Assembly: GCA_014860005.1 (NCBI GenBank)
Contig: JACZKP010000206.1
Location: 1 to 64,000, forward strand
Length of the DNA stretch: 64,000 nt
Reading direction: 5' to 3'
Source of the DNA: Verrucomicrobiota bacterium
Lineage (GTDB): Bacteria > Verrucomicrobiota > Verrucomicrobiae > Limisphaerales > UBA11358
In this document: piece by piece, positions 1 through 8,400 of the stretch
Numbering within the stretch: the first letter of the stretch is position 1
Layout of the letters: every line of letters begins with the position of its first letter
The notes under the pieces: generated by a model
Told to the model about the DNA's origin: nothing
Seen by the model: the letters and a program-made list of their open reading frames with translations, nothing else
Database searches by the model: none
Position numbers and translations under genes: made by a program

Positions 1-19
1 TTCTTTATTGAAATGGCAT

Positions 20-51
20 GGGCCGGGAACGTGAATGTTCCCGGCCCTTTT
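20..51 (+). terminator. Rho-independent terminator
   Basis: A perfect 11-bp GC-rich stem (20-30 paired with 37-47) closes a 6-nt loop and is followed by TTTT. It most likely ends a plus-strand transcript entering from outside the window. It also separates that transcript from the tRNA array that starts about 190 nt downstream. Confidence 0.8.
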
Positions 52-103
52 AATTTCTTCGTAGCAGCCGAGGTAACGAGGCTCTGAGCGTGTTGCCGGT
101 GAA

Positions 104-191
104 GGTGGGAAAGTGGGTGAGTGAGAAAGTGGGCAGACTCGCTCAACGTATTGACGTTCCCACTTTCCCCTTTTCCCACCTGCCCACTTTC
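104..191. repeat. Imperfect inverted repeat upstream of the tRNA array
   Basis: A purine-rich arm (GGTGGGAAAGTGGG at 104-117, with a second GAAAGTGGGCAG at about 124-135) is answered by a pyrimidine-rich arm at 159-191 (CCCACTTTCCC, then TTTTCCCACC and TGCCCACTTTC). The arms are direct duplicates of each other as well as inverted. It resembles the dispersed intergenic repeats seen elsewhere in the window. I see no gene between 52 and 241. Confidence 0.5.
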
Positions 192-241
192 AGCCTGATG
201 CGCCGGGAGATTTCCAGATGCCGCTGCCGCACGAACGCAAC

Positions 242-316
242 GCGGTTGTAATTTAACAGACAGAATACCTCTCCGCCACGGAGGAAGTCCGGGTGCGATT
301 CCCGGCGACCGCACCA
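242..316 (+). tRNA. Aberrant tRNA-Gly (anticodon GCC)
   Basis: A complete cloverleaf can be drawn: a 7-bp acceptor (GCGGTTG with CGACCGC, one G-U), a 4-bp D stem, a 5-bp anticodon stem with loop CCGCCAC (anticodon GCC at 275-277), a 5-bp T stem and an encoded CCA. The oddities are C instead of U33, a D-loop (AACAGACA) without the GG pair, and T-loop TGCGATT, which has G at position 55 where U is expected. It is the first member of the array. Confidence 0.7.
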
Positions 317-325
317 ATCTTCAAT

Positions 326-399
326 AGGCCGCGCGCCAGCTTGCGCAACAGAATCTCCAAAATTCCGTTGGCTCGGGGCAGCACCGAGGTGGCCTGCCA
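326..399 (+). tRNA. Aberrant tRNA-Trp (anticodon CCA)
   Basis: The acceptor is 7 bp (AGGCCGC with GTGGCCT), followed by G73 and an encoded CCA. The anticodon loop is CTCCAAA (anticodon CCA at 357-359) on a weak AT-rich stem. The T stem CTCGG/CCGAG is perfect but its loop is GGCAGCA, with no TTC motif. I could not draw a regular D arm; this stretch contains a TTGCGCAA palindrome. It lies 9 nt after the Gly member. Confidence 0.6.
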
Positions 400-408
400 A
401 TTTCGAAT

Positions 409-484
409 GGGGGCGAGGCAGAAAAGTGATGCACCTGCCCTGCAAGCAGGCTTAAACCGGAGCGTTACCAGTCGTCCTCCACCA
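409..484 (+). tRNA. Aberrant tRNA-Ala (anticodon TGC)
   Basis: The anticodon stem CCTGC/GCAGG is perfect and its loop CCTGCAA gives TGC at 441-443. A 3-bp D stem (GCA/TGC) closes loop GAAAAGTGA, which lacks GG. The T arm is ACCGG-AGCGTTA-CCAGT with one mismatch. The acceptor pairs best as GGGGGCG with CGTCCTC, leaving an extra base before ACCA; a conventional register (GTCCTCC-A-CCA) has two mismatches. The 3' end resembles ordinary bacterial tRNA-Ala. Confidence 0.6.
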
Positions 485-486
485 TT

Positions 487-910
487 TCAAGGATGCGCGG
501 CAATCGATCCTCTTCTCGTTTCGCGCTTCTCATTCGATTGCCACCAACCGCCGGTATCGACATCAAGGCAAGTCAACCAACCGCCGTTGACGGCGCCGGT
601 ATCGACGCACAGCGCGAAACCAAGATTCAGGATTTGACCGGATCGCTGAGGCGAGTGGCCGCAGATGATGCGCTTGCCCGATTTGTGAGGTTTGAGGCGA
701 TCCAAGGATTCCCAGTACAACAGCCAATCGGGTTGTTCATCCATGTCCGCTTCGCCGTCCAGACATGCGTGGACGAAAATGTGGTTCTCTGTTTCCAAGT
801 ATGGCGCTGTGCGCTCGAAAAACTTCCAATGAGAATCCGGAATGATTGTGGCCCAGTCCTGATTGTAGTTTGCTCCGTAGGAGATGAGGGCCTCGAAGCC
901 TCCGTAGCTC
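487..910 (-). pseudogene. Ser/Thr protein phosphatase (PPP-like), 5'-truncated remnant
   Basis: The minus-strand reading frame encodes the C-terminal two-thirds of a bacterial PPP-type metallophosphatase. Recognisable segments are YGGFEALISYG, IPDSHWKFF, HIFVHACLDGEA, the late-domain motif CGHSPQ, and a C-terminal GGWLTCLDVDTGGWWQ. The N-terminal metal-binding motifs (GDxHG, GDxVDRG, GNHE), normally in the first 80-90 residues, are absent. Homology fades at about 905-910, where the DNA becomes the 3' half of a tRNA. A TTG at 927 keeps the frame open, but those residues are antisense tRNA. The stop at 487-489 falls in the linker after the Ala member. I read it as a resident gene cut by tRNA-array rearrangement. 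Confidence 0.7.
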
Positions 911-945
911 TGCCTCCGTGGGCGCAACTCCCACCCCCGCTACCA
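911..945 (+). tRNA. tRNA 3'-half remnant (T arm, acceptor strand, CCA)
   Basis: A perfect T arm (GTGGG at 918-922, loop CGCAACT, CCCAC at 930-934) is followed by an acceptor-like CCCCGCT, A73 and CCA at 943-945. No matching 5' half (AGCGGGG or a wobble equivalent) occurs upstream, where the phosphatase remnant begins. Its T-loop also has G at position 55, so it belongs to the same aberrant family. Confidence 0.55.
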
Positions 946-950
946 ATTTC

Positions 951-1103
951 GGGAAGTGATCCGGCTGCCGGCCTGTAATCCGGTGTCTTCAAACAAGCCG
1001 GATGATGACGACTGGAGCGTTTTAACTCCCAGTTCCGCCACAAGTCAGTTTCCCCAAGTGTTGCTGGTCGCTGTCGCGAACCGTGGTCCAGCACTTCCCA
1101 CCA
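951..1103 (+). tRNA. Oversized class II tRNA-Tyr-like element (anticodon GTA)
   Basis: GGGAAGT (951-957) pairs perfectly with ACTTCCC (1093-1099), followed by A73 and CCA, giving a 153-nt element. Near its 5' end, stem GCCGG/CCGGT closes loop CCTGTAAT (anticodon GTA). The 9 nt before it are too few for a D arm. Between the anticodon arm and the acceptor are about 108 nt. They include a hairpin ACTGG/CCAGT whose 13-nt loop starts AGC, and a terminal stem GCTGG (1063-1067)/CCAGC (1088-1092) next to the acceptor. A competing hairpin (AAGTG/CACTT, 1056-1096) makes the fold uncertain. A73 and G1-C72 fit bacterial tRNA-Tyr. Confidence 0.4.
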
Positions 1104-1108
1104 TTTCC

Positions 1109-1184
1109 GGACCCGTAGCTCAATCAGCGGAGCAACCCGTTGTCTGCGGGAAGGCTGAGGGTGCAAGTCCCTTCGGGTCCGCCA
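1109..1184 (+). tRNA. Aberrant tRNA-Asp (anticodon GTC)
   Basis: This is one of the cleanest members. It has a perfect 7-bp acceptor (GGACCCG/CGGGTCC), G73 (the Asp identity base) and CCA, and a D stem GCTC/GAGC with loop AATCAGCG. The anticodon loop is TTGTCTG on a 4-bp stem. The T stem is GAGGG/CCCTT with loop TGCAAGT. G18 reads as A and U55 as G, while G19 and C56 are kept. Confidence 0.8.
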
Positions 1185-1190
1185 TTTTCT

Positions 1191-1266
1191 CGGAGCGTAG
1201 CTCAGTCTTTAGAGCGCCCGGCTTGGGACCGGGAGGCCGCAGGTGAGAATCCTGCTGTTCCGACCA
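1191..1266 (+). tRNA. Aberrant tRNA-Pro (anticodon TGG)
   Basis: A full cloverleaf can be drawn: acceptor CGGAGCG/TGTTCCG with wobbles, D stem GCTC/GAGC, a perfect anticodon stem CCCGG/CCGGG with loop CTTGGGA, and T stem GCAGG/CCTGC. A73 and CCA are present, and C1-G72 fits bacterial Pro. D-loop AGTCTTTA has T at 18 and 19, and T-loop TGAGAAT has G55 and A56. The 19-56 pair is therefore U-A instead of G-C. Confidence 0.8.
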
Positions 1267-1275
1267 TTTCAAAAT

Positions 1276-1351
1276 GCTGCCGTGGTCGAATACATCAGGC
1301 ATCCGACTTCTAAGCGGAACGATGCAGGTGGAAATCCTGCCGGCAGCGCCA
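1276..1351 (+). tRNA. Aberrant tRNA-Arg (anticodon TCT)
   Basis: The acceptor GCTGCCG/CGGCAGC is perfect, with G73 and CCA. Anticodon loop CTTCTAA sits on TCCGA/GCGGA (one mismatch). The T arm is GCAGG-TGGAAAT-CCTGC. The D stem is weak (GTC with GGC) and its loop AATACATC aligns with A at 18 and C at 19. Because position 56 is G, the 19-56 pair becomes C-G. Confidence 0.75.
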
Positions 1352-1352
1352 T

Positions 1353-1428
1353 TGCCAGGTGGTGTCAAAAGTAGCATGGCGGCCTGTTAAGCCGTTCGGT
1401 GTTGGTGCGAGTCCAACTCTGGCAGCCA
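1353..1428 (+). tRNA. Aberrant tRNA-Asn (anticodon GTT)
   Basis: It starts one base after the Arg member. Acceptor TGCCAGG/TCTGGCA pairs fully with one wobble and is followed by G73 and CCA. The D stem GTGT/GCAT closes loop CAAAAGTA. The anticodon stem GCGGC/GCCGT carries loop CTGTTAA (GTT). T arm GTTGG-TGCGAGT-CCAAC is perfect. A18 and G55 replace G18 and U55, while G19 and C56 are retained. Confidence 0.8.
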
Positions 1429-1433
1429 ATTCT

Positions 1434-1509
1434 CAGGGTGTAATGTCCGCAGCAGACGGCCTGGTTCGGAACCAGGAGGATGGGAGTGTGATTCTCTCCC
1501 CCCTGACCA
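1434..1509 (+). tRNA. Aberrant tRNA-Pro (anticodon CGG)
   Basis: The acceptor CAGGGTG/CCCCCTG has one mismatch; A73 and CCA follow. Anticodon stem CCTGG/CCAGG is perfect, with loop TTCGGAA. D stem TGTC/GACG is shifted by one base and closes CGCAGCA. T stem GGGAG/CTCTC closes TGTGATT. Position 55 is again G and the 19-56 pair would be a G-U wobble. It is the second proline isoacceptor in the array. Confidence 0.75.
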
Positions 1510-1513
1510 TTTC

Positions 1514-1661
1514 GGATGGTTGGCAGAGCAGTAATGCCCCGGTCCCGAAAACCGAGTGAGCCTCCGGGCTGCGTGGGTGCATTACGATTCGCGAAGCGAA
1601 CAGCGAAGTTTGGGCATCCATCTTGGAAGGCTTGGGAAGCCCATCCCTACACCATCCGCCA
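1514..1661 (+). tRNA. Oversized class II tRNA-Ser (anticodon CGA)
   Basis: GGATGGT (1514-1520) pairs perfectly with ACCATCC (1651-1657), followed by G73 (the Ser discriminator) and CCA, giving 148 nt instead of about 90. The 5' half is regular: D stem GCA/TGC with loop GAGCAGTAA, and an anticodon stem with loop CCCGAAA (CGA at 1546-1548). A T-arm-like hairpin (GGGA-AGCCCA-TCCC) lies just before the acceptor. The extra 60 nt or so lie in the variable region and contain a stable TTCGC-GAA-GCGAA hairpin. A shorter 3' end at about 1619 (GGCATCC) pairs less well and lacks CCA. Confidence 0.6.
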
Positions 1662-1691
1662 ATTTCCAAAACCTCAACGAAAGGAAATTCC

Positions 1692-1847
1692 ATGAAGCCT
1701 GACATCCGTTATCAGAGCCAATTGGTGTTGCGCCGGAACTACAAGCCCAATCGCGTCATGCGAATCCGTCCAGTCCGAAAGCTAAACCTGGTGTTCCGCC
1801 CCGTGAACCGATGCGGTGCGAAGCCGCAATTATCCATCGTCTCGTAG
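1692..1847 (+). CDS. Small basic protein encoded inside the tRNA array
   Basis: This 51-codon ORF starts at ATG 1692, 6 nt after a Shine-Dalgarno-like AAAGGAAA (1679-1686). The product is rich in Arg, Lys and Asn (for example VLRRNYKPNR, IRPVRKLNLVFRPV), has no acidic stretch and no membrane segment, and so could bind nucleic acid. Its TAG stop (1845-1847) lies inside the next gene, tRNA-Ile, which starts at 1838. Coding and tRNA sequence therefore overlap by 10 nt. I do not recognise a family. The good ribosome site and its position in the only long gap between adjacent tRNA genes in this part of the array argue that it is translated. Confidence 0.45.
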   Translation: MKPDIRYQSQLVLRRNYKPNRVMRIRPVRKLNLVFRPVNRCGAKPQLSIVS

Positions 1848-1911
1848 CTCAATAGCAGAGCGCCCGGCTGATAACCGTAAAACGCGGGAGCGTTACCTGC
1901 CGGGACGACCA
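1838..1911 (+). tRNA. Aberrant tRNA-Ile (anticodon GAT)
   Basis: Acceptor CGTCTCG/CGGGACG pairs fully with one wobble, with A73 and CCA. The D stem GCTC/GAGC closes AATAGCA. Anticodon loop CTGATAA gives GAT, but only 3 of 5 stem pairs form. The T arm is GCGGG-AGCGTTA-CCTGC. A18 and G55 recur, with G19 and C56 kept. It is the last recognisable array member. Confidence 0.7.
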
Positions 1912-1925
1912 ACCATCTTGATACC

Positions 1926-2135
1926 ATGAAAACAATCACGCTTGTCGCGGACGACAAATCAGCGCCGTGTTCCCGCGAGGCAACTCTGCCGGCATCGAAT
2001 GACCGCGAAAACGTCAACGTTGGGCACGGGCCTTTCACCGCTTCGCGGGCTTCAGCCGCAGCCGTGATGGCGCAGCCGACCGTGAAGACCAACTTTCTGG
2101 AAAGCTTCTACTATTGGGCCTTGTCCCGCTCGTAA
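1926..2135 (+). CDS. Hypothetical small protein downstream of the tRNA array
   Basis: A 69-codon ORF begins 14 nt after tRNA-Ile. It has no clear ribosome site. The product has no membrane segment and no motif I recognise; it ends in an aromatic stretch, FLESFYYWALSRS. It is co-directional with the array and followed by a hairpin at 2137-2160, so it may be the last gene of the same transcript. It may equally be non-coding. Confidence 0.3.
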   Translation: MKTITLVADDKSAPCSREATLPASNDRENVNVGHGPFTASRASAAAVMAQPTVKTNFLESFYYWALSRS

Positions 2136-2136
2136 G

Positions 2137-2172
2137 CCCTCTCCTCGTTCGAGGAGAAGGGGGAGAATTATT
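2137..2172 (+). terminator. Hairpin, possible terminator of the tRNA-array transcript
   Basis: CTCCTC (2141-2146) pairs with GAGGAG (2151-2156), extended by CCCT/AAGGG. The following tract (ATTATTTTG) is only moderately T-rich. The hairpin resembles the CCCTCTCC...GGAGAGGG cores of dispersed repeats, so its role as a terminator is uncertain. Confidence 0.45.
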
Positions 2173-2234
2173 TTGTGGGACGCTTATGCTGCTCACGAAA
2201 TGAAGCTCTCACGGAGGGCTGAATCTGCTCCGTT

Positions 2235-2642
2235 TCACTGCCCGGATATTTTCGCGCGTTGGTAGAGGAACAGAATGCCACTGCCCAGTAAGAGACACGC
2301 TGAGGTGTCGGCATAAAATGGAAACGGAGGCAGCGATAGGCGAATGCCGTGAACCAACAGGATCAAGCCTTCGACAACCATCAATCCACCAAACCATGGA
2401 ATCGCTGCCGCGAATCTGTTTGGCCATGCCGCCATCACCAAAAACCAACAGCCTATCATGGCAAATGCACCCGCAGCCATCCGGAGCCAGTAGTCGAGCA
2501 TCGGGTCATAACCGACTGGCATTGCACCGAAGCCTTGAAGCGCTTCCACAGCGGTTTGCCAGTTCATGAAAACACCCAAGACCGAAACACCCCACGTAAC
2601 GCCAGCAAATCCGAGGCAAACTCTCAGTAAGCGCAGAGGCAT
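2235..2642 (-). CDS. Small integral membrane protein of unknown function
   Basis: The 135-aa product has four hydrophobic segments, at about residues 5-27, 50-72, 78-98 and 105-127, separated by short loops; most of the protein is in the membrane. I recognise no catalytic motif. It starts 29 nt after the nagB stop on the same strand and is probably co-transcribed with it. This suggests, but does not show, a link to amino-sugar metabolism. Confidence 0.7.
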   Translation of the reverse strand: MPLRLLRVCLGFAGVTWGVSVLGVFMNWQTAVEALQGFGAMPVGYDPMLDYWLRMAAGAFAMIGCWFLVMAAWPNRFAAAIPWFGGLMVVEGLILLVHGIRLSLPPFPFYADTSACLLLGSGILFLYQRAKISGQ

Positions 2643-2671
2643 GACAACTTGAAGTTAGACGCTTTTCTGTT

Positions 2672-3457
2672 TTACCGATAACTCTCCCACTCCGGTTCGT
2701 TGTCGAAAATCCAGCGGTAGTATTCCTTCTCCTTCAATTTCGCGCCGGCTTCCTCGTCCACCACCACCGTGCAGCGCGCGTGCAATTGCAGCGCTGTCGC
2801 CGTGACCATGCTGGTGATCGGACCTTCCACCGCCTGCGCGATCACCTCCGCCTTGCTGTTGCCCGTGGCCAGCAGGATGCAACGGCGTGCTTCGATGATG
2901 GTGCCCACGCCCATAGTGATGGCGCGGCGCGGCATCTTGTCTTCGCCGCCAAAGAACGGGGCGTTTTGCTTGATCGTGGTCGGGGTGAGCGCCTTCACGC
3001 GGGTACGCGAGCGCAGGGCGGAGAGGGGTTCGTTGAAGCCGATATGTCCAGCCTTGCCAATGCCGAGTAGTTGCAGGTCAATGCCGCCGCAGCGCTGGAT
3101 CACGGATTCGTAACGCAAACATTCCTCGTCGAGATCGTTCGCCAGGCCGTTTGGCAGGTGCGTGTTCCGCGGATCAATGTTCACGTGGCGGAACAGGTGA
3201 TGGTTCATGTAGTGGCGGTACGAATTCTGATCGCTCGGAAACAGGCCGACGTATTCGTCGAGGTTGAACGTGCGACAGAGTGAAAAATCAAGCTTCTCCT
3301 CCCGGTGCAGCCGCACGAGATGACGGTAAACCTGTTCCATCGTCGAGCCGGTCGCCAGGCCCAGCACGAGAGGCGGATTGTTGCGCAACTCGCGGGCGAG
3401 AATGCGCGCCACCAGTGAAGCTGCGGCCTCTTTGTTCGATTGTATGATGACTTCCAC
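2672..3457 (-). CDS. nagB: Glucosamine-6-phosphate deaminase
   Basis: This enzyme converts glucosamine-6-phosphate to fructose-6-phosphate and ammonia, feeding amino sugars into glycolysis. The 261-aa length matches the family. LGLATGSTMEQVY near residue 34 is the phosphate-binding loop, FNLDEYVGL near 65 carries the catalytic Asp, and GKAGHIGFNEP near 134 carries the active-site His and Glu. The E. coli enzyme has NDGH at the last site; here it is KAGH, so the Asp paired with the His is Ala. I recall RTGHIGFNEP in a Bacteroidetes-like branch, so this is probably a clade feature and not a defect. The ATG at 3457 gives the normal N-terminus. Confidence 0.93.
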   Translation of the reverse strand: MEVIIQSNKEAAASLVARILARELRNNPPLVLGLATGSTMEQVYRHLVRLHREEKLDFSLCRTFNLDEYVGLFPSDQNSYRHYMNHHLFRHVNIDPRNTHLPNGLANDLDEECLRYESVIQRCGGIDLQLLGIGKAGHIGFNEPLSALRSRTRVKALTPTTIKQNAPFFGGEDKMPRRAITMGVGTIIEARRCILLATGNSKAEVIAQAVEGPITSMVTATALQLHARCTVVVDEEAGAKLKEKEYYRWIFDNEPEWESYR

Positions 3458-3557
3458 GGGAGGGATTAAATCAGGAAGTGGTGCGGATGGACACGAAAAA
3501 CGCGAACAGCGGAAGTGGCAACCCCATGGCGGCCGTGCGCTGTAACCGTCCGGCGGA

Positions 3558-3743
3558 TCAGGGGTTTGGTGTCGGGTCCGGGTCGGTCGTGGACGAAGTT
3601 CCTTTTCGCCGCTGCACGGCCTGGCGGAGCAGGTATTCGATCTGGCCGTTCACGCTGCGGAGTTCGGCGTGGGCCCAAGTCTCGAGTTCCTTCCACAACT
3701 CCGGATCCATGCGTAGCAGAAATGACTTCCGGCCCTCCATCAC
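3558..3743 (-). CDS. Ribbon-helix-helix (Arc-type) DNA-binding protein
   Basis: The 61-aa protein reads as one RHH fold: a beta strand (KSFLLRMD), helix 1 ([14 protein letters not shown]) and helix 2 after the [15 protein letters not shown] turn, followed by a polar tail. Such proteins bind DNA as dimers and often repress their own operons. Its ATG overlaps the stop of the upstream PH-like gene by 4 nt (ATGA), so translation is coupled. As far as I know, SPFH genes are commonly followed by a small Arc-like gene, which supports a real three-gene operon. Confidence 0.8.
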
Positions 3744-4270
3744 TCCACGCTCCTCTGCGCCTCTGGATTGAAGCCCAAGGCCCGCACAAACGCTCGCGGA
3801 TCATCCGGGCTGACCACCACTCTGCGTTTTGCAAATTCCAGCACCACCGAACGCGCGGGGTCGGTGATGAACGCGCGAAAGTTGCCCAGCTTCTTGTTGT
3901 AAAACCAGCCTGTGACGCCCATGAACCCGCCATTGCCACACGAGCGGATGCATTTGTGCATCGCCTTCGCGTCGGCGTAGGCGCGCCGCAGATCTTTCAA
4001 CGGCATGCGGGTCTGCCAGAACGAACGGTGAATCCACAACTCACGCTGCCGGACCGTGTAACCACGCACACAAAAGAGGGCGGTGATGCCTAGGATGAGC
4101 AGGACTGAGCCAGGTATAAGCACCGCCACCCAAAGGTCCTTACGCGGCACCGCTAGGGGCAGGATGATCGCCACACCCGAGATCAACACGATCACGCTCC
4201 AGGTGACGATCTTTATGCCCCGGCCCCACGGAGCGCCAAACTGGCTGCTTGACTGTCTTGAACGTCTCAT
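3740..4270 (-). CDS. Membrane protein with bacterial PH-like domain
   Basis: The 176-aa product has two transmembrane helices at about residues 20-40 and 50-72. A soluble, strand-rich C-terminal part follows ([26 protein letters not shown]... to ...[15 protein letters not shown]). This order is typical of bacterial PH-domain membrane proteins: two helices, then a domain with the ending VSPDDPxxFVxAL. It lies 30 nt after the SPFH gene and overlaps the RHH gene. It probably acts at the membrane with the SPFH protein. No enzymatic motif is visible. Confidence 0.7.
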
Positions 4271-4300
4271 GAACTCACCTCGTAAGGCTTCATCCGATGC

Positions 4301-5239
4301 CTACTGATACAAAGTGCCCGTGTTGACTACCGGCGTGACTTCCGCTTCGCCGCAAAGCACCACGAGCAGATTGCTCACCATCGCCGCGCGACGGTCGTCG
4401 TCGAGATGCACGACCTTTTTCGCCGCGAGATCATTCAGCGCCATCTCGACCATGCTCACGGCGCCTTGCACAATCTTCGTACGCGCGGCGATGACCGCTT
4501 CGGCTTGCTGACGACGCAGCATCGCCTGGGCGATTTCCGGCGCGTAGGCCAGATGTGTGATGCGCGCTTCCTCGACCACCACACCCGCCTTGGCCAGCCG
4601 CTGCTGCAATTCTTCTTTCAACGAACCCGCCACTTCATCGGCGTTGCTGCGCAGTGTGATTTCATCCTCCTCGCCCTGATCGTAAGCATAAGAGTTGGCC
4701 AGATGGCGCACGGCGGATTCGCTTTGCACGTCCACGTATTCCTCGTAATCCTCCACGTCGAAAGTCGCCTGGGCCGTGTTTTGCACCCGCCAAACCACCA
4801 CCGCCCCGATCTCAATGGGATTGCCGCGCTTGTCATTCACTTTCACCTTCTCGGTGCTGAAGTTGTGGGCGCGCAGCGAAATCTTCGTTCCCTTGGAATA
4901 GAATGGATTCGCCCAGTGAAAGCCGCTGCGCTTCACCGTGCCATGATACGCGCCGAACAGAATCAGGACGCGGGCTTGATTCGGTTGGAGCGTAAAGTGC
5001 CCCACCAGAAACACCACGCCCAGACCCTCCAACAGAATGCCGGCAACGAACTTCGCCACCGGAAACGCCCGCTGTAATTCAGAGACCTCGTAGATGCTGC
5101 GCACAAATAGAAAGAGGCCCACAGCCAGAATCGCCAGATTCACCACCAACATCAGCCAACCGTTAAGTGCCGACCCTTCGTGCTCGATGCTCGGCGACTT
5201 CGCGCTCTCAGACCGACCGGATTCAATTGCAGTTTTCAT
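4301..5239 (-). CDS. SPFH/Band 7 (flotillin-like) membrane protein
   Basis: The 312-aa protein has two hydrophobic segments (about residues 28-48 and 62-85), then an SPFH domain starting at QARVLILFGAYHGTVKRSGFHWANPF. It ends in an Ala/Glu-rich helix (IAQAMLRRQQAEAVIAARTKI). SPFH proteins oligomerise into membrane scaffolds that organise proteases or lipid domains. It heads the SPFH / PH-like / RHH operon. A promoter and dyad lie just upstream, on the minus strand. Confidence 0.9.
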   Translation of the reverse strand: MKTAIESGRSESAKSPSIEHEGSALNGWLMLVVNLAILAVGLFLFVRSIYEVSELQRAFPVAKFVAGILLEGLGVVFLVGHFTLQPNQARVLILFGAYHGTVKRSGFHWANPFYSKGTKISLRAHNFSTEKVKVNDKRGNPIEIGAVVVWRVQNTAQATFDVEDYEEYVDVQSESAVRHLANSYAYDQGEEDEITLRSNADEVAGSLKEELQQRLAKAGVVVEEARITHLAYAPEIAQAMLRRQQAEAVIAARTKIVQGAVSMVEMALNDLAAKKVVHLDDDRRAAMVSNLLVVLCGEAEVTPVVNTGTLYQ

Positions 5240-5250
5240 AGTAGTTCCTA

Positions 5251-5289
5251 TCTATATCTAAGTGATATCATAGTGAAATCAGATGTCAA
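5251..5289 (-). promoter_or_regulatory. Candidate promoter and dyad for the SPFH operon
   Basis: Read on the minus strand, TTGACA (5289-5284) is followed after 16 nt by TATCAC (5267-5262). The -10 region overlaps the inverted repeat TATC-N5-GATA (5255-5267), and a second GATATC lies close by. An AT-rich dyad over the -10 is a plausible operator for the RHH protein encoded at the end of this operon. The -10 itself is a weak match. Confidence 0.45.
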
Positions 5290-5380
5290 GAGCTACTTTG
5301 GCAATTCTTCCGCAGTTCCTTCTGCCCATCCGTCCGCCGCCTTGAACCTACAGGTCGGGGCTCTTCTTTGGCGCACCAAC

Positions 5381-5408
5381 AAAAAGGGCGCGCCTTTTCG
5401 GCGCGCCC
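5381..5408 (-). terminator. Rho-independent terminator of the PATR gene
   Basis: A perfect 9-bp GC stem (GGGCGCGCC at 5386-5394 with GGCGCGCCC at 5400-5408) has a 5-nt loop. On the minus strand it is followed by TTTTT (5385-5381). It lies 35 nt past the stop of the large surface protein gene. Confidence 0.85.
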
Positions 5409-5442
5409 GTGAAGTAGTTGAAACGGTTAGTTGCCTGCCGCA

Positions 5443-8400
5443 TCAGGGATAAACCAGGCGGAAGAAGACGGCGCCGTTCGCGGTATCAATGGTCATGAAG
5501 ACCTTGTTGGTGGCGGCCGAGTCAGGCACGGTTTCCCAGTTGGAACTGATGCCGACAGACAAGGAATTGGTTTGGGATTCCAATCTCCAGCCGATGTGGG
5601 TCTCCGGCCAGGAGAGTTCCATGTTTCCGCCACTGATCAGTACGCCGATGTCGGTCGGTTCGGTGGAGACGCCGGCTTTCACTTTGAGGGTGCCATCAAC
5701 AGTCAAGCTGCTGGTATCCCAAGCCAGCCCAGCGGCCGGAGTCGCCGGGATGATTTCGGCGAATTCACCGGAATAGGTGGCGGCCTCGAACAGCTTGAAG
5801 GAGTTGCCGGACGAAATCGCCGGACCGAGGTTCTGGACCACCAGAGTTCCGCCGTAGTTCACCGAGCCGGCGTTCACGAGATCGCTCGACGGCGTGGCAC
5901 TGCTATTGACCTCAACGACGTTCGTGCCCGCGAGCGTGAGCGCACCGGTAATGGTCATCGCTCCAATTGAAGTGCCTACGGAGAGCGTTGCTCCGGAGCC
6001 CACCGTCAGAGCACCCTCGATCGTGCCAGTACCAACGAGCGTCTGGCCAACAGCCAGGTTTAGACCGGCGGCATCCTTCGCGGAGGTGTCCAGGATGGCA
6101 CCGGTGGCAACCGTAATAAGCGGCGTGCTGGCGAGGGTGCCCGCCGCACCGAGGGCCAGTTTGCCGCCGCTGATCAAAGTCTCGCCCGTGTAGGTGTTGT
6201 TACCCATGAGGGTCAACGATCCGGAGTTCACGGTGAGCGACAGCTTGCGGGTGCCGTCCACGATGCGACCATTCAGTGTGCTGTTGTTGACGCCGCCTGC
6301 AAAGGTGAATATCGAGTCGGCTGTGGCACTGCCGTTGGTGATCCAATGATTCGCTCCGTTGACCGTGGTGATGGACGGGACAGTCTGGTTGAATCCATTC
6401 AGATCCAAAGTGCCGCTGCTGGTCCCGCTCTGGCCAAGCGATAGCGGCGCCGTGGCGCAAGCGGCATCGTTAGCACCGAGGACCACTTTCCCATAAGCGA
6501 TCGAGGTGGTTGCCCAGAGATTGTCGGGGTTGCTGAATTCCCAGGCCGTGTTGTCGGTGATCGCCATGGTGCCGGTCGGCAGTTGGAGTCTGCCGGAAAT
6601 CCGGCCGGAGAGGGTCGCCGCGCCGTGGGTGCCCCGGAAGAAGGCGGTGCCATTGAACCCGTTGGTGCCAATAAGGGGGCCGGTGATGTTGAACTCATTC
6701 GCAGCACCATCGCAATGAAACGCAACGATGGTTGAGCCTTGAAGGAGCAGGGGACCTGTCCAAGTGTTCGTGAGCGAGTCCGAGGTCATGGAGACGCGAT
6801 AGTCGCCGCCAGCAGAGGCTGCGTTGAAAATGCCCGTGACATCCGCCGGGGTAGTAATCCCGCCGCGCAGATAAAGGCGCACGCCCGAACCGCCCGAGAT
6901 AGCAGTGTTGTAATTGACGGAAACGGTCTTGGCGTTGCCCAAGGCCAAGCTGTTGGACAGCACAAGGTTTCCGTGGTTCTGGACGACATTTCCCGTGAAG
7001 TCGTTGGGCGCGACCAGATGCACGGAGCCGGCATCGCCCTTGACGATTCCGCCGGGCCCGCTGATTTGCCCCATGTAATAAATGATGACCCCACTGGCGG
7101 AGTTCAGAGTCGCCAGGCCCCCTGTCAGATTTACCGGACCGATGATCCGGTTGCCCGTTCCGGAACCAGCGCTGATCGAGCCGCCGCCGTGGATCACAAA
7201 GTTCTTGTTCAGTTCGTTCGTGACGGCCCACAACCGAAGATTCGCGTTGGAATGGAGCGTCAGCGTTCGCGAAGGATCGCCCATTGAAGTGGTGACGCTT
7301 TCCCAACCCAGATTGCCTTGCATCACAGTAATGTCGCCAAGGGCCGGATCAACCGTAGCGCCTACAATCGCGACATCATGCGGCCCAACTTTGGTGAGGC
7401 TGTACGGGTTGCCATCGGTGCTCAGAATTGCGTTCGGGGACGCCGCAACATCTGTTCGGAGATCCCAACGATTCCCGTGAGCGCCCAAAGTGGTATTGCC
7501 CGCGAGCGTGATGCTCCGCACCGCGTTTTGTTGTGCCGTACCGCTGCTGTTGATAATGGCGCCCAGTCCATTCGGGCCGGCACCAGTCACAATGATGTTT
7601 TCAAAACCGAGTTGCAGGCCGTTGACATCCAGGGCACCACCATCGTTGATGGTCGTGCCTGCGGCTACCGTCCCCAGCGACGTGGCAGTGCCGGGGCGAA
7701 GGGTGCCCCCGTTGATCGCGATGGGCCCTGTGAGCGCTGGCTGGGCCTGACTCAGGATCATCAGGCCCATGCCTTTTTTCTCAAGTTGACCGGCGCCGCT
7801 GATGACGTTGGCCACGGTGATGTTGTCGCTGCGGTTGAAGACCAGCGTGCCTTCGTTGGAGATTGGGGCGTTGTTCAGGTTGCCCGTAGCCCCGCCATTG
7901 CCCACTTCCAGAGTTCCAGCGGTGATGGTCGTGGCGCCGCTGTTGTCATTGATGCCAGTGTTGGCAATCGTCAGTTTGCCCGCGCCTGATTTGGCTATGC
8001 CACCAGTCCCAGTCAGCTTGCCCGGGCCGGTCCAGGCAAAGTCTTTGGTTTCGTTCTGCACCGTCACCGCGGCCGGAGCCAGCGCTCCATACAGGCCCAA
8101 CCCGGTGCCAATCGCAGTATCGTCAAACTTGACGCCGTCGCCCGGATAGAAAGTATCCGCCAAGGCCAGGCTGTTGGACCAATTGGCTGTGATGTTGATG
8201 TCCCACACCGTCTCGTTGCCAACCGCGTTGCCCTGCCAGGTGAGGCTTTCCGCGCCGATCCCAACCGGAGTGGCGCGAACGAGGATGGCCCCAGGGGTGG
8301 TCACTGGATCCACGGTGAACGTGTAGCGCGAATCCGACACCACATTGAGAACCGCCGTGGCGGCATCGAAGGTGCCGGTGTAGGTCGCAATCGTGTAGGG

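Follow-up and report, generated by a model that had tools for sequence, protein, structure and literature searches.

A Verrucomicrobiota tRNA array with a candidate alternative elbow, A18-G55 in place of G18-Psi55

Transfer RNA (tRNA) acquires pseudouridine at position 55 (Psi55) through TruB and 2'-O-methylguanosine at position 18 (Gm18) through TrmH; a tRNA with A18 and G55 cannot receive Psi55 and has no G18 for Gm18. Here we analyze a run of tRNA genes in which this combination predominates, located at positions 242-1911 of the first 64,000 nt of contig JACZKP010000206.1 of a Verrucomicrobiota bacterium (assembly GCA_014860005.1), a stretch to which we refer as the window. Searches of open-licence PMC papers aimed at A18-G55 tRNAs found none. 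Combinatorial suppressor-tRNA work from the Steinberg group may include an A18-G55 pair. A non-translational tRNA-Gly of staphylococci has altered D- and T-loops and serves a single amino acid. The original prediction for this array had pointed to that tRNA, and the likeness holds in so far as both depart from the canonical loops; it goes no further, as the staphylococcal case concerns Gly only, whereas the arrays represent nearly all amino acids. In the standard elbow, residue 18 pairs with Psi55, the second residue of the T-loop, and is intercalated between the fourth and the fifth, and Psi55 is called universally conserved in part of a review (PMC4810234). Pyrrolysine tRNA (tRNA-Pyl) and mitochondrial tRNAs without G18G19 or TPsiC also depart from G18-Psi55, but those covered in part of PMC7609411 have small D-loops or lost contacts, whereas the arrays keep the cloverleaf, ordinary D-loop sizes and G19-C56. 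The A18 described in an excerpt of PMC6337575 is that of tRNA-Pyl and is not paired with G55 there.

In layout, the arrays resemble the silent trn operon of Anabaena PCC 7120, as far as it is described in part of PMC10272220: the operon is a long spare-tRNA array beside a full host set. TrcR represses both this operon and rtcB, translational stress lifts the repression, and an HNH gene is likewise raised when trcR is mutated (PMC10272220). A Nostoc plasmid array, which we reached via its HNH gene, contains 24 tRNAs detected by ARAGORN, one of them with A18-G55; the other 23 are not G55, whereas in several Verrucomicrobiota arrays most or all tRNAs are. Bxz1-type mycobacteriophages share with the arrays a Ro60 relative (47% identity) and many tRNA genes, but none of the 27 ARAGORN tRNAs of LinStu has G55.

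The run opens the window, and all of its genes lie on the forward strand, end in CCA and together represent at least nine amino acids. T-loops (positions 54-60) were read directly from the sequence, and seven genes were also aligned by Rfam. As predicted, G55 is found throughout, at a place where almost every tRNA has U, in ten of ten readable T-loops including those of Trp, Ala and a 3'-half remnant. This remnant derives from a CAU tRNA that the closest relative has whole. The Ser gene, which had less surely been counted as G55, has to be taken off this list because an insert in its T-arm makes position 55 unreadable, and a Tyr gene had been overlooked. Position 18 is mostly A, again in line with the claim: in Gly, Asp, Asn and Ile and, by eye, in Ala and Pro(CGG), with U in Pro(UGG); for Arg the most plausible reading is A18-C19, which places C19 opposite G56. 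The 19-56 pair is retained in the forms originally listed, G-C in Gly, Ala, Asp, Asn and Ile, U-A in Pro(UGG), C-G in Arg and G-U in Pro(CGG).

The coordinated change recurs far beyond the window. Our main count comprised the unique ARAGORN tRNAs with 7-nt T-loops from all fetched loci (n = 1239), other T-loop lengths being dropped. Positions 18-19 of the 244 G55 tRNAs read AG in 218 cases, GG in 6 and otherwise in 20; those of the 975 U55 tRNAs read GG in 932, AG in 6 and otherwise in 37, and the remaining tRNAs had C55 (19) or A55 (1). A fixed-layout set, restricted to 7-nt D-loops (n = 280), avoids picking the alignment by identity and gave 209 G18-U55, 63 A18-G55, 5 G18-C55, 2 U18-G55, 1 G18-G55 and no A18-U55; without the pattern-chosen viral loci (n = 156), the same states occurred 121, 27, 5, 2, 1 and 0 times. 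Positions 19-56 are G-C in 273 of these 280 tRNAs, the other seven comprising three Watson-Crick pairs, one G-U and three unpaired combinations. By eye, replacements at 19-56 were U-A and C-G under both elbows and A-U with U55. Both elbow states were seen in 41 of 56 anticodon labels (one of them unreadable) and side by side at 51 loci, some of which overlap. The 54-58 pair is U-A in 191 of 206 G55 tRNAs, and in the best 150 of 211 matches to a dedicated covariance model 96.4% of stem cells were paired, compared to 56.3% after shuffling. At the level of the class, the tRNAs follow neither the standard combination of G18 with U55 (Psi55) nor the substitutions regardless of pairing that decay would leave. 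Because 18 and 55 almost always change together, the alternative elbow appears to be a working design, not damage. Host tRNAs, with which comparison had been advised, were uniformly U55 (31 of 31 in G001, the closest relative, and 30 of 30 in G100, a second array genome, from the 30 best-scoring loci of each, 61 of 61 in all), and TruB is present in all nine array genomes. Among the named phage and plasmid records, 177 of 178 unique tRNAs were likewise U55, the exception being a G55 Glu(CUC) tRNA of the Nostoc plasmid, which has A18.

The closest relative is a Verrucomicrobiia metagenome-assembled genome (MAG), of which contig JAHCLO010000007.1 (loci L067 and L068) gave the best match to the nagB gene of the window (96%). 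Its nagB-adjacent site has no array, but the contig carries the homologue at a distance of about 48 kb. That array spans 15 kb and by eye follows the order of the window: Gly, Trp, Ala, CAU, Tyr, Asp, Pro, Arg, Asn, a damaged Pro(CGG), Ser and Ile. Beyond Ile there are Phe, RtcB, Y-RNA-like stretches and Ro60, with about 20 more model matches in all. Blocks shared with the window are 78 to 93% identical, and the T-stems of Ile and Ala differ on both strands between the two copies (by eye), with one mismatch in the window Ala. The original prediction had taken homologous arrays in which 18, 19, 55 and 56 vary randomly and without pairing as the sign of plain decay; the relatives are not of this kind, the homologous array is conserved, and the covariation of 18 and 55 across the 1239 tRNAs supports the predicted elbow lacking Psi55. 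Since relatives have the same pattern, the elbow of the array is more than chance. In the window, no relative of RtcB, Ro60, HNH or LysR was detected at E 1e-3, and therefore its copy of the array is a shortened one. The Y-RNA-like stretches of the relative (L068 4557-5274) keep canonical UUC T-loops by eye, amid tRNAs that are mostly G55. Rfam RF02553 (YrlA / Y RNA) had two matches between tRNAs in the relative, both under the gathering score, and none in positions 1-6000 of the window.

A search for G55 T-arms that was blind to the D-loop, with a cluster defined as at least three matches within a few kb, detected clusters in 9 of 288 Verrucomicrobiota genomes sampled (any match in 44) and in 5 of 199 genomes of Planctomycetota, the phylum of a Phycisphaerae MAG (any match in 51), and none in 198 genomes of a third phylum, that of a Rhodothermales MAG (any match in 26). 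The reversed pattern gave at most four matches per genome in the same 288 Verrucomicrobiota. The compact array of G100 is G55 in all 25 ARAGORN genes, represents 17 amino acids and mostly encodes CCA; it contains 20 of the 64 tRNA matches in that genome, so that many isoacceptors stand beside a full host set, as they do in G001. Of the 150 best model matches, which come from the window and 15 bacterial loci (16 loci in all), 133 are G55. In viral contigs, a narrower G55 pattern matched at least 120 stretches, and in viral contigs chosen by Ro60 with no regard to T-loops 25 of 256 unique tRNAs are G55, 19 of these with AG. The anticodon is CAU in 28 viral G55 tRNAs, and 18 of the viral CAU sequences listed (17 distinct, by eye) have initiator-like C1 and A72. 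Such initiator-type tRNAs with the A18-G55 elbow and the C1-A72 mismatch occur at viral loci such as L203, L205, L274 and L283. Similarity searches with the array retrieved 11 named phage and 5 plasmid records, each at one short place covering 3-6% of the query, and no G55 was found around the four of these 16 matches that were examined.

The surroundings of the nine Verrucomicrobiota clusters are partly conserved: a homologous HNH gene follows the array in eight, a homologous LysR gene precedes it in six and a homologous sigma factor gene follows in five. RNA-repair genes (RtcB, Ro60/TROVE, RlaP) lie in or beside the array in four of the nine, namely RtcB and Ro60 in G001, TROVE inside the arrays of G182 and G081, and RlaP beside that of G235; weak RlaP-like matches were located some 7-8 kb off the arrays of G272 and G100. 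Loci found through HNH in G216, G191 and G200 contain RtcB relatives of 29-30% identity. One HNH endonuclease family adjoins or sits inside tRNA arrays in Verrucomicrobiota, Planctomycetota, a Nostoc plasmid, a Mycobacterium plasmid and a cyanophage (L068 10269-10922; L294-L300; L387, L388, L390-L393).

Sequence comparison thus shows that the changes are coordinated and recurrent, that the stems are paired and the locus is conserved, and that RNA-repair genes are present at some loci. We interpret the arrays as real tRNA genes of an alternative-elbow class, which would form working spare sets whose elbow does not depend on modification and which would serve when RNA is damaged or translation is stressed, and assign this reading a probability of roughly 0.6. 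A18-G55 takes the place of G18-Psi55, with 19-56 still paired and U54-A58 mostly kept, and the T-loop thereby becomes U-GNR-A, in which G55 can make the turn of Psi55 and A18 can fill the slot of G18; the exact hydrogen bonds of this elbow we infer. The T-loops of flavin mononucleotide (FMN) and adenosylcobalamin (AdoCbl) riboswitches, as given in part of PMC2258182, have the same U-A closing pair and GNR triloop, though no tRNA elbow. As U54-G55-N-R-A58 corresponds to this riboswitch-type form, a turn at G55, a slot for A18 and an elbow without Psi55 are plausible. Such an elbow would need neither Psi55 nor Gm18 and would escape enzymes that recognise U55 or G18, TruB among them; the specific benefit of the swap may be either that no modification is needed or that an elbow-reading enzyme is avoided. 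The array tRNAs would fold into the L shape, become charged and serve translation. Judging by how the arrays are laid out, by the repair genes next to some of them and by the Anabaena parallel, they would represent reserves that translational stress or damage to RNA brings into use, in the manner of the trn operon. Natural tRNAs with both partners exchanged, and this in many isoacceptors at once, would mean that the elbow can be rebuilt, would offer a clean test of the purpose of Psi55, Gm18 and TruB, and would draw attention to spare tRNA sets, some of which are accompanied by RNA-repair genes.

Several observations weigh against this interpretation. Many of the loci were picked by the G55 pattern, although this pattern ignores the D-loop; the alignment used for the stems had been fitted to the model, and T-loops of other lengths were dropped. 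The Fisher value of 1e-61 for 18-55 is only indicative and overstates independence because the sequences are related, and three of the seven fixed-layout tRNAs without G19-C56 do not pair. Arrays are impure: 17 of the 150 best model matches are U55, the Planctomycetota loci are mostly U55 (24 of 135 G55), and only one of the five ARAGORN genes in the G354 cluster is G55. No RtcB, TROVE or close RlaP was found at five of the nine Verrucomicrobiota cluster loci, where not every open reading frame (ORF) was scanned. Neither neighbour worked as a marker of arrays. The Ro60 protein of G001 matched one of 288 genomes, missing the TROVE proteins of G182 and G081; HNH matched 89 of 288, with G55 tRNAs at 5 of 18 loci examined, the other 13 having no ARAGORN array and one of the five being mostly U55 (1 of 9 G55). 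In the window itself, Gly and Ser have C33 instead of U33 (by eye), Ala carries one base too many and a mismatched T-stem pair, half of the CAU tRNA is missing, and Tyr and Ser are interrupted.

A further reading, to which we give somewhat less than even odds, treats A18-G55 as a second self-contained elbow code of phages and repair-linked spare arrays, by which a whole tRNA set would become invisible to enzymes or toxins that read G18-Psi55 and still be accepted by the ribosome. Unlikely, in our view, is that the swap protects against a nuclease or toxin that attacks tRNAs by recognising the canonical elbow, with the arrays as immune spares: the G55 tRNAs in Ro60-chosen viral contigs, the repair genes in or beside some arrays and the change of every isoacceptor found in the G100 array, expected if a general feature is read, agree with it, but the effectors discussed in an excerpt of PMC13191261 cut anticodon loops, no elbow-reading nuclease was identified in this analysis, and in mixed arrays most members keep the usual elbow. 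Simple decay of an array of phage origin, whose unselected genes share changes from one ancestor, would fit the truncated window copy with its several damaged members, and tRNAs, Ro-like proteins and RtcB do co-occur in some large phages (PMC7824862, in part). We consider it improbable for the class, since decay would not give coordinated 18-55 changes in so many anticodon labels, T-stem changes on both strands of Ile and, apart from its mismatch, Ala, or a compact G100 array that is G55 in every ARAGORN gene; for the window copy alone, where Ala, Ser and the CAU remnant partly show pairing-blind substitutions, decay is possible. Non-ribosomal or regulatory tRNA-like RNAs (for peptidoglycan, peptides or Ro60 binding), which the original prediction had entertained, are very improbable: low standard tRNA scores, C33 in two window members and the Ro60 and Y-RNA-like stretches within the G001 array would suit them, but the broad decoding sets with mostly encoded CCA (17 amino acids in G100), G3-U70 retained in the relative's Ala (by eye) and the viral initiator-type tRNAs with the same elbow speak against them, and the canonical UUC loops of the adjoining Y-RNA-like stretches imply that the swap is no mark of Ro ligands.

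With the alternative-elbow class as the preferred interpretation, the window array is the truncated and partly broken beginning of an array of this class, a copy that may be dying. Standard finders miss or under-score genes of the A18-G55 type. In the window, ARAGORN detected four array genes, Rfam aligned six above and one below the gathering score, and the dedicated model, built from 62 G55 tRNAs of which five were window-derived, recovered nine members at 70 to 20 bits. Gly(GCC) at 242-316 (67.7 bits) has the T-loop UGCGAUU, A18-G19 and C33. A weak Trp(CCA)-like gene at 326-399 (GGCAGCA, G55) scored 10.6 bits, at noise level, and the homologous stretch is present in L067; neither it nor the Ser(CGA)-like gene at 1514-1661 (C33, T-arm insert, 11.1 bits) exceeded two stray matches elsewhere (11.5 and 11.1 bits). 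Ala(UGC) at 409-484 has AGCGUUA and 30.4 bits, its additional base being located in the 3' acceptor strand (by eye). Asp(GUC) at 1109-1184 (UGCAAGU, A18), Pro(UGG) at 1191-1266 (UGAGAAU, U18, U19-A56) and Asn(GUU) at 1353-1428 (UGCGAGU, A18) were, like Gly, found by ARAGORN, Rfam and the model; Arg(UCU) at 1276-1351 (UGGAAAU, A18, C19-G56 by eye), Pro(CGG) at 1434-1509 (UGUGAUU, 45.5 bits) and Ile(GAU) at 1838-1911 (AGCGUUA, A18, 60.5 bits) by Rfam and the model.

The initiator-like CAU tRNA, intact in the relative, is reduced to its 3' part at 897-945 (CGCAACU; 20 bits over 871-945). The expected place of its 5' half is occupied by a 146-aa ORF on the reverse strand (487-927), which had no Pfam match. 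By eye and from known motifs, this ORF is presumably a phosphoesterase-like fragment. On pMPPla107, a metallophosphoesterase is annotated some kb from the tRNAs. A basic 51-aa ORF, read directly at 1692-1847 on the forward strand, lies between Ser and Ile and overlaps Ile, and a 69-aa ORF at 1926-2135 immediately follows the Ile gene.

Inserts of about 65-75 nt interrupt the T-loops of the window Tyr and Ser genes and of the relative's Gly. Tyr(GUA), at 951-1103 on the forward strand, has a long variable arm and, compared to the relative, a 66-nt insert (1022-1087). The Ser insert is related to that of the relative's Gly (77.6% identity, homologous stretch 1575-1647), and motifs of both recur at the end of the G001 array; insert-related sites in the relative are L067 11342-11416 and L068 9211-9268. 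These inserts may be a small mobile element or an intron, and their splicing by RtcB is a purely speculative idea. Folding of the interrupted genes and the insert of the window was unremarkable (z -0.41 to -1.26), and the Gly insert of G001 folds better (z -2.50).

The genes examined downstream of the array look chromosomal (Pfam: GlnD, HflX-type GTPase, MoeA, type II secretion ATPase). Ahead of the array, at 10-57, a GC-rich hairpin is followed by T-rich sequence, and the relative's array is also preceded by a similar hairpin (contig position 166200).

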